This document shows positions 8,426-17,601 of a stretch of 64,000 nucleotides of DNA, piece by piece. Both the position numbers and the translations under genes were made by a program. Source of the DNA: Myxococcus guangdongensis (GTDB taxonomy: Bacteria; Myxococcota; Myxococcia; Myxococcales; Myxococcaceae); NCBI RefSeq assembly GCF_024198255.1, contig NZ_JAJVKW010000002.1, positions 682,001 to 746,000 on the forward strand, written 5' to 3'. The notes below the pieces were generated by a model. The model did not search any database, was not told where the DNA came from, and was given only the letters and a program-made list of their open reading frames with translations. Numbering within the stretch: the stretch's first letter is position 1; each line of letters begins with the position of its first letter.

Positions 8426-8632
8426 GGATTGCCGCACCAAGTCGCCGGGACACAACAAGACCGTTGTAACTCCGCTTCACCCAGCAGTTCCCCCAGGCAA
8501 CGTCGAGGCCACCTACACGTCTCTCAGGAAGTCCCGCAAGCGAAGCGGACAGCCTCGCTTCCAGCTCTCGCACGGACAGCCGTGCGGGCATGCGAGGGAT
8601 TGACAAGGCCCCGCATCCCGTTTATTTCGCAT

Positions 8633-8732
8633 ACAGCATCAAGAGCGGTCCCGCTTCGGCGGGGCCCGACAACCTGGAGACGGACCTCCAAGGTGTCCAA
8701 ACGATGCGGTCCGGAGAGCAGGTGCTCGCCGG
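8633..8732 (+). promoter_or_regulatory. Candidate SAM riboswitch (S-box core, SAM-I/SAM-IV-like compact form)
   Basis: The RNA folds as P1 (8633-8640 with 8703-8710, one mismatch), then AUCAAGAG, then P2 (8646-8654 with 8659-8668, UUCG loop), then ACAACC, then P3 (ACC-UGGAG with CUCCA-A-GGU, 8672-8679 with 8686-8694), then GGUGUCCAA, closing P1. These single-stranded elements match the conserved SAM-I core (AUCAAGAG, GCAACC, GGUGCCAA). P2 lacks the kink-turn extension and P4 is absent. A hairpin (8711-8732, CCGG arms) follows P1 directly, as in SAM-IV. The gene downstream makes homoserine for methionine synthesis, the expected target. A further long hairpin at 8752-8788 may be part of the expression platform; it has no T-run. 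Confidence 0.6.
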
Positions 8733-9058
8733 GCAAACCAAGTGTCCGAGGCGAGGCAGTCCCTCCGCTTCGGTGAGAGAGGACCTCGTGGTTCCCACCG
8801 CTCGCATCGCCCCCCTGTACCCCGCGAAGGTCCGTCGCGCGTTCCGCTCGCTCGAGAGCGTCCGAATGCGCCACGCCCTGCTACGCACGCTCGCGCGAAT
8901 GCGCGGGCCGGTGCACGCCGGCTAGGGCTTCCACCTCCCCCTCCCTTCCCTTTCTTCCGTCGGCGCACCAGCGCCGCGCTCGCTCGACGTGTGCGTCGGC
9001 GTCGCGGACGTGCGCCCCCATGCCTTCAGGGCCCCGGGCCCGCGTTCGAGGTTCGCAG

Positions 9059-13800: not shown

Positions 13801-13829
13801 TTGACAGTGCGGGACGGATTGATTACGTC
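13801..13829 (+). promoter_or_regulatory. Possible sigma70-type promoter for the cys leader
   Basis: TTGACA at 13801-13806 is a perfect -35 hexamer. The best -10 at 17 bases spacing is weak (TACGTC, 13824-13829). If used, transcription would start close to the leader peptide ATG at 13839. Confidence 0.35.
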
Positions 13830-13838
13830 TGGAGCTCG

Positions 13839-13925
13839 ATGCTCGTCTTCGTCGCCACGTCCGGAACCTGTTGTCGCGGCATGTGTTGTCGCGCCACGAC
13901 GGGTCCGTCCGTTCGAACGTACTGA
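13839..13925 (+). CDS. Cysteine-rich leader peptide of the cysK attenuator
   Basis: A 28-codon reading frame upstream of cysK: MLVFVATSGT, then CCRGMCCRAT, then TGPSVRTY and TGA. All four Cys codons are TGT, the rare synonym in this genome, and they form two CCR pairs produced by the direct repeat TGTTGTCGCG (13869 and 13884). TGGAG lies just upstream of the ATG at 13839; the ATG at 13881 could also start a 14-residue version. Ribosome stalling at the TGT pairs when Cys-tRNA is scarce would leave 13898-13907 free to block the terminator at 13950-13980. It is too short for ordinary gene callers; the functional reading is inference. Confidence 0.6.
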   Translation: MLVFVATSGTCCRGMCCRATTGPSVRTY

Positions 13926-13991
13926 GCGTCCTTCGCGCACAGGCGTGTCCGGCCCGTCCCCAGCACCTGGAGACGGGCCGTTCTCTTTTTC
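13898..13991 (+). terminator. Attenuator: antiterminator segment plus intrinsic terminator before cysK
   Basis: CGGCCCGTC (13950-13958) pairs perfectly with GACGGGCCG (13972-13980) and is followed by TTCTCTTTTT, a classical intrinsic terminator. The segment GACGGGTCCG (13898-13907), inside the leader peptide frame, is nearly the same sequence as the 3' arm. It can pair instead with 13950-13958, giving mutually exclusive antiterminator and terminator folds. A ribosome finishing the leader at 13925 would cover the antiterminator strand; one stalled on the TGT codons would not. The cysK start is 54 bases past the T-run. Confidence 0.65.
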
Positions 13992-14045
13992 CCCACACGC
14001 CGGGGCGCTGCATCGAGGTCCCGGCCCTTCCCACCGAGAGACCGG

Positions 14046-15014
14046 ATGCCCCACAACATCTACCCCGACGTGACGCAGCTCATCGGCCGCACGCCCATCG
14101 TCCGCCTGTCGCGCATCGGCACACCGGAGGAGGCCACGGTGCTGGCCAAGGTCGAGTTCTTCAACCCGGGCGGCAGCGTGAAGGACCGCATCGGCCTGGC
14201 CATGCTCGAGGACGCGGAGAACCACGGCCGACTGCGTCCAGGCATGACGATTGTCGAGCCCACCAGCGGCAACACCGGCGTGGCGCTCGCGATGGTCGCC
14301 GCGGTGAAGGGCTACCGCATCGTCCTCACCATGCCGGAGAGCATGAGCGTGGAGCGTCGGCGCATCCTCGAAGCCTATGGCGCGGAGCTGGTGCTCACGC
14401 CCGCGGCCAAGGGGATGAACGGAGCCGTCGAGGCGGCCGACGAGCTGCTCAAGCAGTTGGGCGACAAGGGCTTCATGCCGCAGCAGTTCCGCAACCCGTC
14501 CAACCCGGAGATCCACCGCCGCACCACGGCGAAGGAGATTCTGGGGGATTTGGACGTGACGAAGCTGGACGCCTTCGTCGCGGGCATCGGCACGGGCGGC
14601 ACCATCACCGGCGCGGGCGGTGTTTTGAAGAAGGCCAACCCGCGGCTACAGGTCATCGCCGTGGAGCCGCTGCGCTCGCCGCTGCTCACCGAGGGCAAGG
14701 CGGGGCCGCACCGCATCCAGGGCATCGGCGCCAACTTCGTGCCCGAGGTGCTGGACCGCGCCGTGTACGACGAGGTCATCGACGTGTCGGACGTGGACGC
14801 GTACGTGGCCGCGAAGGACCTGGCGCGCAAGGAGGGGCTGCTCGTCGGTATCTCCAGTGGCGCGGCGCTGCACGCGGCCCGTCAGGTGGCGCGCCGTCTG
14901 GGGCCCGGCAAGACGGTGCTCACGGTGCTGCCGGACACGGGGGAGCGTTACTGGAGCTTGTTCGCGGCCTTCGCCGAGGAGTTGGCGAAGACACCGCAGG
15001 GAGTCGGTGGATGA
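14046..15014 (+). CDS. cysK: Cysteine synthase A (O-acetylserine sulfhydrylase)
   Basis: PLP enzyme making cysteine from O-acetylserine and sulfide in the cytoplasm; 322 residues, normal for CysK. Landmarks are IGRTPIVRL at the N-terminus, [12 protein letters not shown] with the PLP lysine, the substrate loop [16 protein letters not shown], the phosphate-binding [12 protein letters not shown], and [11 protein letters not shown] with the PLP ring-contacting Ser. It has no C-terminal CBS domain, so it is not a cystathionine beta-synthase. First structural gene of cysK-metN-metI-metQ; its stop overlaps metN (ATGA). Expression is predicted to be set by the attenuator upstream. Confidence 0.93.
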
Positions 15015-16012
15015 TTGAGTTGCGCGGTATCAGCAAGGTGTACAGGCAGGGCGGGCGCGAGGTGTCGGCGCTCCAGGACGTGACGCTGCGGGTGGACCCG
15101 GGCGAGGTGTTCGGCGTGCTCGGACAGAGCGGCGCCGGCAAGTCCACGCTCATCCGCTGCGTCAACCTGCTGGAGCGCCCCACCCAGGGGCGCGTGCGGG
15201 TGAACGGGAAGGAGATGCTGTCCCTGAGTCCCGATGAGCTGCGCCAGGCGCGGCAGGGCATCGGGATGATTTTTCAGCACTTCAACCTGTTCTCCTCGCA
15301 GACGGTGGCGCAGAACGTCGCCTACCCGCTGGAGGTGGCGGGCCTGTCGCGAGAGCAGATTCGCGAGCGTGTCGCGGAGCTGCTCTCGCTGGTGGGGTTG
15401 TCGGACAAGGCGGAGGTGTATCCCTCGCGGCTGTCGGGCGGGCAGAAGCAGCGGGTGGGAATCGCGCGGGCGCTCGCGCCGCGTCCGCGCATCCTGCTGT
15501 CGGACGAGGCGACGTCGTCCCTGGACCCGGAGACGACGCGCTCGGTGCTGTCGCTCCTGAAGGACCTGAATCGGCAGCTGGGGCTCACCATCCTGCTCAT
15601 CACCCACCAGATGGAGGTGGTGAAGGCCATCTGCGACTCGGTGGCGGTGCTGGAGCAGGGCCGGCTGGTGGAGCAGGGCAAGGTGGTGGAGCTCCTGTCG
15701 CGGCCGGGCACGCATCTGCATGAGCTGTGCTACCCGCCGTTCGCCACGGGTGAGGCGTCGGTGCTGCGAGGCGGGCAGCGGGTGTCGCTGTCCCTGTCGG
15801 GTGAGCACTCGACGCGCCCCATCCTGTCCACGCTGGCGCGACGGTTCGACGTGGACGCGCACCTGTTGGAGGGCTCGCTGGAGCGCGTGGGTGAAGCGCG
15901 CGTGGGGCGGCTGTTGTTCGAGCTCACGGGCGCGCCGGACGCGGTGAGCCAGGCGCTGGCGTTCCTGCGGGAGCAGGGCCTGACGTCCGAGGAGGCCGCC
16001 CATGCCTGGTGA
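15011..16012 (+). CDS. metN: Methionine ABC transporter ATP-binding protein
   Basis: Cytoplasmic ATPase of the MetNIQ methionine importer; 333 residues. It has Walker [11 protein letters not shown]-loop [13 protein letters not shown], signature [15 protein letters not shown], Walker [13 protein letters not shown], and switch His in [10 protein letters not shown]. The C-terminal approximately 80 residues (from [10 protein letters not shown]) form the NIL-type domain that lets methionine inhibit the transporter in E. coli. The ATG at 15011 overlaps the cysK stop. Co-transcription of a methionine importer with cysteine synthase fits a shared sulfur-limitation response. Confidence 0.93.
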
Positions 16013-16685
16013 GCAGTTGGTACAGGCGTTGTGGGTGGCGACCCTCGAGACGCTCTACATGACGTCGGTGGCCACGGTGCTGGTGGTGGTGCTGGGGCTG
16101 CCGTTGGGTGTGCTGCTGGTGCTCACGGACCGGGGCGGACTGTGGGAGCGGCCGGCGCTGAACCGCGTGCTGGGCACGCTGGTCAACGTGGGGCGCTCGG
16201 TGCCGTTCATCATCTTGATGGTGGCCATCGTCCCGCTGACACGGCTCCTGGTGGGGACGACCATCGGCACCACGGCGGCCATCGTCCCGTTGGTGGTCGC
16301 GGCGATTCCCTTCATGGGTCGGGTGGTGGAGCAGGGCCTGCGCGAGGTGGACGGAGGGCTGGTCGAGGCCGCCATCGCGATGGGCTCGACGCATCGGCGG
16401 GTCATCTTCCGGGTGCTGTTGCCGGAGGCCCTGCCGTCTCTCGTGCGCGGCATCGCGCTCGTGGTTATCAGCCTGCTCGGCTACAGCGCCATGGCGGGCG
16501 CCGTGGGCGGAGGTGGGCTGGGAGACCTGGCGGTGAAGTACGGCTACATGCGCTTCCGCACCGACGTCATGTTGGGCTGCCTCGCCGTGTTGCTGGCGCT
16601 GGTGCAGCTCGTCCAGTGGCTGGGTGACGGACTGGCGTCCCGCTTCGACCACACCACGCAGCGCCCCAGCCGCGCACACGAGTGA
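16002..16685 (+). CDS. metI: Methionine ABC transporter permease
   Basis: Inner-membrane channel of MetNIQ; 227 residues with five hydrophobic segments. These include YMTSVATVLVVVLGLPLGVL, SVPFIILMVAIVPLTRLL, TAAIVPLVVAAIPFMG, a helix around VISLLGYSAMAGAVGGGGLG, and a last helix ending LVQLVQWLG. The EAA loop contacting MetN is VEAAIAMGSTHRRVIFRVLL. The start overlaps metN by 11 bases. Length and layout are standard for MetI. Confidence 0.93.
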   Translation: MPGEQLVQALWVATLETLYMTSVATVLVVVLGLPLGVLLVLTDRGGLWERPALNRVLGTLVNVGRSVPFIILMVAIVPLTRLLVGTTIGTTAAIVPLVVAAIPFMGRVVEQGLREVDGGLVEAAIAMGSTHRRVIFRVLLPEALPSLVRGIALVVISLLGYSAMAGAVGGGGLGDLAVKYGYMRFRTDVMLGCLAVLLALVQLVQWLGDGLASRFDHTTQRPSRAHE

Positions 16686-16752
16686 AATTTCCGCGCGGGC
16701 CCGCTGTTGGCCCGCGCCCTCTTCTCTTTCGGACATGCGGAACCCCCACCCC

Positions 16753-17601
16753 ATGAAGCCACCCGCGTCATTCCTGCTCATCCCCCTGGCCTTCGCGGCC
16801 GTCTCCGTCGCCTTGCTGGTGGGGACGGGCTGCAAGAAGTCGGAGGCACCCGCCACCGGCGAGGCCCCTGGCATTCCCACCTTGAAGGTCGGCGTCAACC
16901 CGGTGCCACACGGGGAGATTCTCCGCGCGGCGGTGCCCGTGGCCCTGCGCGACGGCGTGCGCGTGGAGGTGGTGGAGTTCACCGACTACGTGCAGCCCAA
17001 CATCGCGCTGGCGGACCGGCAGCTCGACGCCAACTACTTCCAGCACGTGCCCTACCTGGAGCGCTTCGCCGAGGACCGGAAGCTGTCCTTGCGCAGCGCG
17101 GGCTCGGTGCACCTGGAGCCGCTGGCGCTGTACTCGACGAAGTTCCGTCAGCTGGCGGAGCTGCCCGAGGGCGCGCAGGTGACGATTCCCGCCGACCCGA
17201 GCAACGCGTCCCGCGCGCTGCACCTGCTGGCGGACCAGGGGCTGTTGCGGCTGCGCGAGGGCGCGGGCGCTGGCGCCACGCTGCAGGATGTGGTGGGCAA
17301 TCCTCGCAAGCTGGAGCTGAGGGAAATCGACGCGGAGCAGCAGCCGCGCACCCTGCAGGACGTGGCCGCCGCCGTCATCAATGGCAACTACTTCCTGGAG
17401 GCGCAGAAGCACCTGAACCTGGACGCGAAGGTGCTGGCCCGTGAGTCCTCCACGCGCAACCCATACGCCAACGTGCTCGTCGTGAGGAAGGGTGACGAGG
17501 GCCGCCCCGAGGTCCGCACGCTGCTCAAGGCCTTGCAGTCCCAGGAGGTGCGGCGGTTCATCGAGACGAACTACGGCGGCGCGGTGGTTCCCGCGTTCTG
17601 A
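16753..17601 (+). CDS. metQ: Methionine-binding lipoprotein
   Basis: Substrate-binding lipoprotein of MetNIQ, 282 residues from ATG 16753 (an in-frame ATG at 16735 adds six residues; neither has a strong ribosome-binding site). The signal MKPPASFLLIPLAFAAVSVA leads to LLVGTGCKKS, with the Cys as lipidation site. The NlpA/MetQ fold follows, with LKVGVNPVPHGEILRAAVP, VEFTDYVQPNIALADRQLD, DANYFQHVPYLE, and ALYSTKF before the central VTIPADPSNASRALHLL. INGNYFLEA and YANVLVVRKGD are typical C-lobe elements. Last gene of the cysK operon, followed by a hairpin. Confidence 0.92.
   Translation: MKPPASFLLIPLAFAAVSVALLVGTGCKKSEAPATGEAPGIPTLKVGVNPVPHGEILRAAVPVALRDGVRVEVVEFTDYVQPNIALADRQLDANYFQHVPYLERFAEDRKLSLRSAGSVHLEPLALYSTKFRQLAELPEGAQVTIPADPSNASRALHLLADQGLLRLREGAGAGATLQDVVGNPRKLELREIDAEQQPRTLQDVAAAVINGNYFLEAQKHLNLDAKVLARESSTRNPYANVLVVRKGDEGRPEVRTLLKALQSQEVRRFIETNYGGAVVPAF

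Follow-up and report, generated by a model that had tools for sequence, protein, structure and literature searches.

Upstream of a cysK-metNIQ gene cluster of Myxococcus guangdongensis, a very short open reading frame (ORF) rich in cysteine codons is followed by a terminator hairpin, and the question raised by this locus is whether the two together make a switch that responds to cysteine. The locus was studied within a stretch of 64,000 nucleotides, called the window below. With high confidence, its best explanation is transcription attenuation mediated by a ribosome, with charged tRNA-Cys as the signal and metNIQ, in the window together with cysK, as the target. The original prediction had proposed classical amino-acid attenuation; re-reading of the sequence recovered each of the elements it had described (the ORF, the Cys codon pairs, the terminator arms, the U-tract and the segment 13898-13907), and both the conservation of the locus and the modelled stall-dependent pairing of its RNA lend support to that reading. 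The promoter and the leader ORF comprise the following features:

13801-13829, + strand: promoter, with the -35 element TTGACA at 13801-13806, a 17-nt spacer and the -10 element TACGTC at 13824-13829
13839-13925, + strand: leader peptide ORF, ATG at 13839 to TGA at 13925, 28 codons, MLVFVATSGTCCRGMCCRATTGPSVRTY and stop
13869-13874, + strand: first Cys codon pair, TGT TGT, within strand 1 (Cys11 in 29/29 leaders, Cys12 in 18/29)
13884-13889, + strand: second Cys codon pair, TGT TGT (Cys16 and Cys17, both in 29/29)

The clustering of codons for a relevant amino acid is evident; four of the 28 codons specify Cys, the downstream cysK scores above the TIGR01139 cut-off, and the leader was found in 29 genomes. 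Among 30 long ORFs from the 64-kb window, Cys makes up 1.05% of the codons and TGT 30 of the 163 Cys codons (TGC 133), so four TGT codons within 28 do not correspond to the background. The description of TGT as rare holds in the window, but its use is not essential, as the leaders of a second family, considered below, contain mostly TGC; in the window leader TGT is additionally constrained by pairing within the 1:2 hairpin. Searches of Pfam and NCBIfam revealed no matching family for the leader peptides, and Rfam contained no family above the gathering score for the leader, the best being the sub-threshold Atu_C7 (22.7 vs 45 bits), and none at 14 related loci.

The promoter is kept in all 29 leader genomes, with a spacer of 17 nt (27 genomes) or 18 nt (two genomes) and a -10 element of the form TAC[CG]T[CG]; the distance between this element and the start codon is 8-9 nt in 29/29 genomes. 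As it is only 9 nt in the window, transcription would start at the AUG or within a few bases of it, and the leader mRNA, judged from promoter spacing, is probably leaderless. A generic promoter and terminator scan listed neither the leader promoter nor the terminator; it is uninformative for both because it considers only loops of 3-8 and requires T at the last -10 position. The RNA strands and hairpins of the locus are as follows:

13862-13907, + strand: 1:2 hairpin, in which 13862-13865 and 13867-13874 pair with 13896-13907 and 13875-13881 forms an inner stem with 13887-13893 (fold)
13898-13907, + strand: strand 2, the 5' strand of the antiterminator, GACGGGTCCG, predicted to pair with 13950-13958 on stalling at Cys11, Cys12 or Cys16
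13950-13980, + strand: intrinsic terminator, strand 3 being 13950-13958 (CGGCCCGTC) and strand 4 13972-13980 (GACGGGCCG)
13981-13990, + strand: U-tract, TTCTCTTTTT, present in 21/29 genomes and absent from the M. xanthus clade and genome G079

An intrinsic terminator (13950-13990) is located between the leader ORF and the first structural gene; its arms form a perfect 9-bp stem, with a hairpin energy of -24.5 kcal/mol, and the 1:2 hairpin includes the first Cys pair. The region 13839-13992 folds better than its shuffled versions (z = -4.87, 0/200), and 87.7% of cells are paired in the terminator alignment (26 sequences) vs 31-48% in slid controls; the 1:2 and 2:3 helices were assessed via energy, swaps and shuffles. 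The expectation that the competing segments covary was borne out in part: 2:3 pairing is kept in most clades and one compensated change was found, where the Corallococcus strand 2 GGCCGG pairs with CTGGCC and the equivalent in the window is GACGGG with CCCGTC, but covariation in the terminator is modest.

The modelled RNA ran from the 3' edge of the ribosome (A site +13) as far as mid-loop in the terminator, so that strand 4 was still absent. For the window leader, pairing of strand 3 with the ORF was predicted whichever Cys codon the ribosome occupied (P 0.66-0.97, with 0.97 for Cys16), and P was 0.00 both for a ribosome at the stop codon and for ribosome-free RNA. None of 100 dinucleotide shuffles of the ORF, and none of 100 synonymous recodings, reached the stalled-minus-free contrast of 0.97; this contrast had the same direction in five of six other leaders (0.46-0.97), the exception being that of Corallococcus G029 (-0.03), and in Corallococcus the switch contrast is weak. 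In a second set-up, with an explicit ribosome footprint and both flanks free to fold, a ribosome at Cys11, Cys12 or Cys16 gave P 0.95-0.97 and its absence 0.00; an antiterminator excluding the terminator is predicted to be favoured by stalling at these three codons and not at Cys17 (0.00). The proposal that a stall at 13884-13889 frees the antiterminator strand finds support in this model for Cys16 (0.95-0.97), but not for Cys17. The stop-codon state was ambiguous in this set-up (P 0.51 in the window).

The original prediction had also assumed that a ribosome completing translation covers strand 2, which disagrees with the geometry of the leader: the stop codon comes 16-25 nt downstream of 13898-13907, and a ribosome at 13923-13925 would leave most of this segment outside its footprint. 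The 1:2 hairpin (13862-13874 with 13896-13907) accounts better for repression, and the explicit-footprint results likewise make this hairpin, and not the stop-codon ribosome, the likelier element to hide strand 2. In equilibrium folding, the terminator prevails (P 0.99) even when a ribosome is stalled, which means that antitermination has to rely on kinetics, as attenuators usually do. An exchange of ORFs and hairpins between leaders gave a pattern that was not uniformly diagonal; the ORFs of M. xanthus type and Pyxidicoccus type were interchangeable, Corallococcus native pairs did not outscore several chimeras, and the hairpin of G059 paired poorly with its own ORF, so that coevolution is supported between some clades only.

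The mechanism suggested by these models would begin with RNA polymerase starting 0-4 nt ahead of the leader AUG and a ribosome loading directly at the 5' end of the leaderless mRNA. Under cysteine shortage, this ribosome would stall on UGU codons in strand 1, the 5' part of the hairpin, leaving strand 2 (13898-13907) free to pair with strand 3 (13950-13958) ahead of the synthesis of strand 4; with 2:3 pairing in place no terminator would form, and cysK-metNIQ would be expressed. With plentiful cysteine, or with the leader untranslated, strand 1 would hold strand 2, the 3:4 terminator would form and transcription would end at about 13990.

A family-wide DNA search, combined with a peptide profile, found the leader in 29/96 genomes of Myxococcaceae, the ORF being conserved in 28 genomes besides that of the window; the profile gave no convincing match elsewhere among 195 genomes of the phylum. 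The leader-bearing genera are Myxococcus/Pyxidicoccus and Corallococcus, and the leader genomes in them are exactly those that have this MetN ortholog. Loss of the Cys codons or of the competing stem in close relatives, named in advance as evidence against attenuation, was looked for. Cys11, Cys16 and Cys17 proved to be invariant (29/29), as did the TGT codons at positions 11 and 16 (29/29), and the 2:3 pairing persists in most clades.

The leader is intact in seven M. xanthus-type genomes, which have no U-tract, and in G079, which has no comparable terminator hairpin; control in these genomes may depend on Rho, act on translation or be in decay. The M. xanthus-type loci (L054-L060), where the leader peptide is kept, the stem is kept in most and the U-tract is absent, represent a natural test of the peptide without an intrinsic terminator. 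Two observations would suit a Cys leader that works chiefly through termination by Rho or through coupling to translation, the hairpin being an accessory, as has been reported or suggested for mycobacterial polycysteine leaders: G079 and the M. xanthus clade retain the leader without a usable intrinsic terminator, and mycobacterial Cys leaders were predicted without intrinsic terminators (PMC1262725). As a general reading this is improbable, since the perfect stem, the U-tract and the competing antiterminator are conserved in the window and in most relatives, but it may apply to the M. xanthus clade. Attenuation at the intrinsic terminator remains the preferred reading, and the genes surrounding the leader bear on it further:

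8631-8750: SAM-I-IV riboswitch (53.9 bits), heading the upstream aspartate kinase/homoserine dehydrogenase (AK-HSD) operon
14046-15014, + strand: cysK, cysteine synthase A (NCBIfam TIGR01139, 438 bits, above the cut-off of 351)
15011-16012, + strand: metN, ABC transporter ATP-binding protein (best NCBIfam TIGR02314, E 8e-115, below the equivalog cut-off)
16002-16685, + strand: metI, permease (best NCBIfam NF008049, 209 bits, just under the cut-off of 212)
16735-17601, + strand: metQ, substrate-binding lipoprotein with a putative start (NF008285/TIGR00363, E 1e-51 / 4e-50, below the cut-offs)

The gene functions are consistent with cysteine supply. The location of the leader before cysK-metNIQ, as originally described, is correct for the window, but the conserved target is metNIQ: metN is present in every leader genome, cysK is found between the leader and metN in only one Myxococcus clade, and elsewhere metN directly follows the leader. 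Judged from gene order, cysK is an insertion in one clade and the leader belongs to metNIQ. The upstream operon encodes a bifunctional aspartate kinase/homoserine dehydrogenase and two cystathionine-type PLP enzymes, and it ends just before the attenuator, so that one RNA regulator of sulfur amino acids follows another. The record BNCN01000002.1, titled Comamonas sp. KCTC 72670, is of Myxococcus type over the entire locus (AK-HSD, PLP enzymes, leader, metNIQ) and is probably mislabelled.

The terminator lies 162 nt past the upstream stop codon and would block read-through, as expected if it simply closed the AK-HSD/cystathionine operon and the Cys-rich ORF had arisen by chance. This is very unlikely, however, given the conservation of the ORF, the promoter and the Cys codons, and two other genera have other Cys leaders together with another upstream neighbourhood. 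Moreover, in Corallococcus L067 the leader precedes metNIQ and none of the upstream-operon genes was found within ~6 kb upstream, which links the leader with metNIQ rather than with that operon.

Other Cys-rich leaders were found in the family. The orthologous metN genes of two further genera, g7 and g5, are preceded by different Cys-rich peptides, VYASLQRCCRCPITCRPGEEGACARAFHA and VLLACARCCPHVVATWCGHEGARVRT, with 4-7 Cys, a TTGACA element, a short gap between the -10 element and a GTG start, and a 9-bp terminator with a U-tract; these leaders (L092-L094, L096-L097) are located 240-375 nt upstream of metN, a position equivalent to that of the window leader. A third, unrelated leader, with 8-9 Cys, precedes a second cysK in seven Pyxidicoccus-type genomes (L134-L140; G063, G068, G054, G079, G067, G057 and G073), with the sequence MSLPLPTTGAQCCCC(C)RVACACC(C)LAGPEHWESA and close variants; the number of its Cys codons varies by species (CCCC or CCCCC, CC or CCC). 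It lies ~200 nt upstream of cysK (e.g., L106), and its terminator is GCGGCCCG...CGGGCCGC TTCCATTTT. In this second-cysK family, the predicted pairing of strand 3 with the ORF reached P 0.85 for most Cys codons, 0.00 for the stop codon and 0.86 without a ribosome, the last value indicating that there is no counterpart of the 1:2 hairpin. No clear Cys leader was seen at the housekeeping cysK of the relatives examined, and the MetN orthologs in G003, G004 and G001 lack one.

The leaders of the other genera and of the second cysK have no peptide motif in common except Cys, and unrelated peptides that share Cys alone and precede cysteine-supply genes are what codon-based sensing predicts. It is most improbable that the nascent CCxGxCC...GPSVR peptide is an arrest peptide or a redox or metal sensor, responding to something besides tRNA-Cys charging: GPSVR is near-invariant in the window-type leaders and CC pairs could bind metals, but this stretch is almost invariant at the nucleotide level too (GGT CCG TCC), as expected of strand 2, and the motif is not shared by the unrelated leaders.

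The design of the probable attenuator is a textbook one; among myxobacteria it appears to be novel, and it is met there again with peptides of unrelated sequence. Rather speculatively, myxobacteria may have repeatedly evolved leaderless cysteine attenuators with unrelated peptides before metNIQ and a second cysK, where the leaderless start would confer specificity for the attenuator's own promoter, transcripts reading in from the SAM-riboswitch operon being untranslated at the leader and always terminated, and where the MetNIQ-like transporter would import cysteine, cystine or another sulfur source, not methionine alone. With this locus, a putative cysteine-responsive switch can be tested directly in a model genus, and the substrate of MetNIQ becomes open to prediction; the family offers a natural evolutionary series, from the intact attenuator, through leaders without a U-tract or without the hairpin, to other genera with other peptides before the same gene.

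The open-access papers searched contained no account of a myxobacterial leader-peptide attenuator, and to our knowledge few cysteine-specific attenuators have been described. The general plan resembles the trp-type attenuation of E. coli, represented by trpL and the his, leu, ilv, thr and phe leaders: a short leader ORF, tandem codons for the end product, strands 1-4 and an intrinsic terminator. Unlike these, the Myxococcus leader is proposed to sense cysteine and probably has a leaderless start, and its strand 2 is located inside the ORF, at least 16 nt upstream of the stop codon. In Streptomyces lividans, metL (SLIV_29928) is a leaderless leader before metNIQ with three Cys near its end (RCMCRRMC), for which the authors stress Met and Thr and found no Rho-independent terminator (PMC8079986); it can be related to the Myxococcus leader by analogy only. 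Ascribed to Met/Thr in Table 4 of that study, metL might also serve as a cysteine leader. In mycobacteria, leaderless short ORFs encoding polycysteine were predicted (PMC1262725) and later reported as cysteine-responsive attenuators (Canestrari et al. 2020, cited in PMC9031893); their regions have no conserved terminator hairpin, and phylum, peptide and targets differ from those of the Myxococcus leader. The Myxococcus leader resembles them in its short ORF, its tandem Cys codons and the sulfur genes downstream, and would probably do so in a leaderless start and in the proposed attenuation that responds to cysteine.
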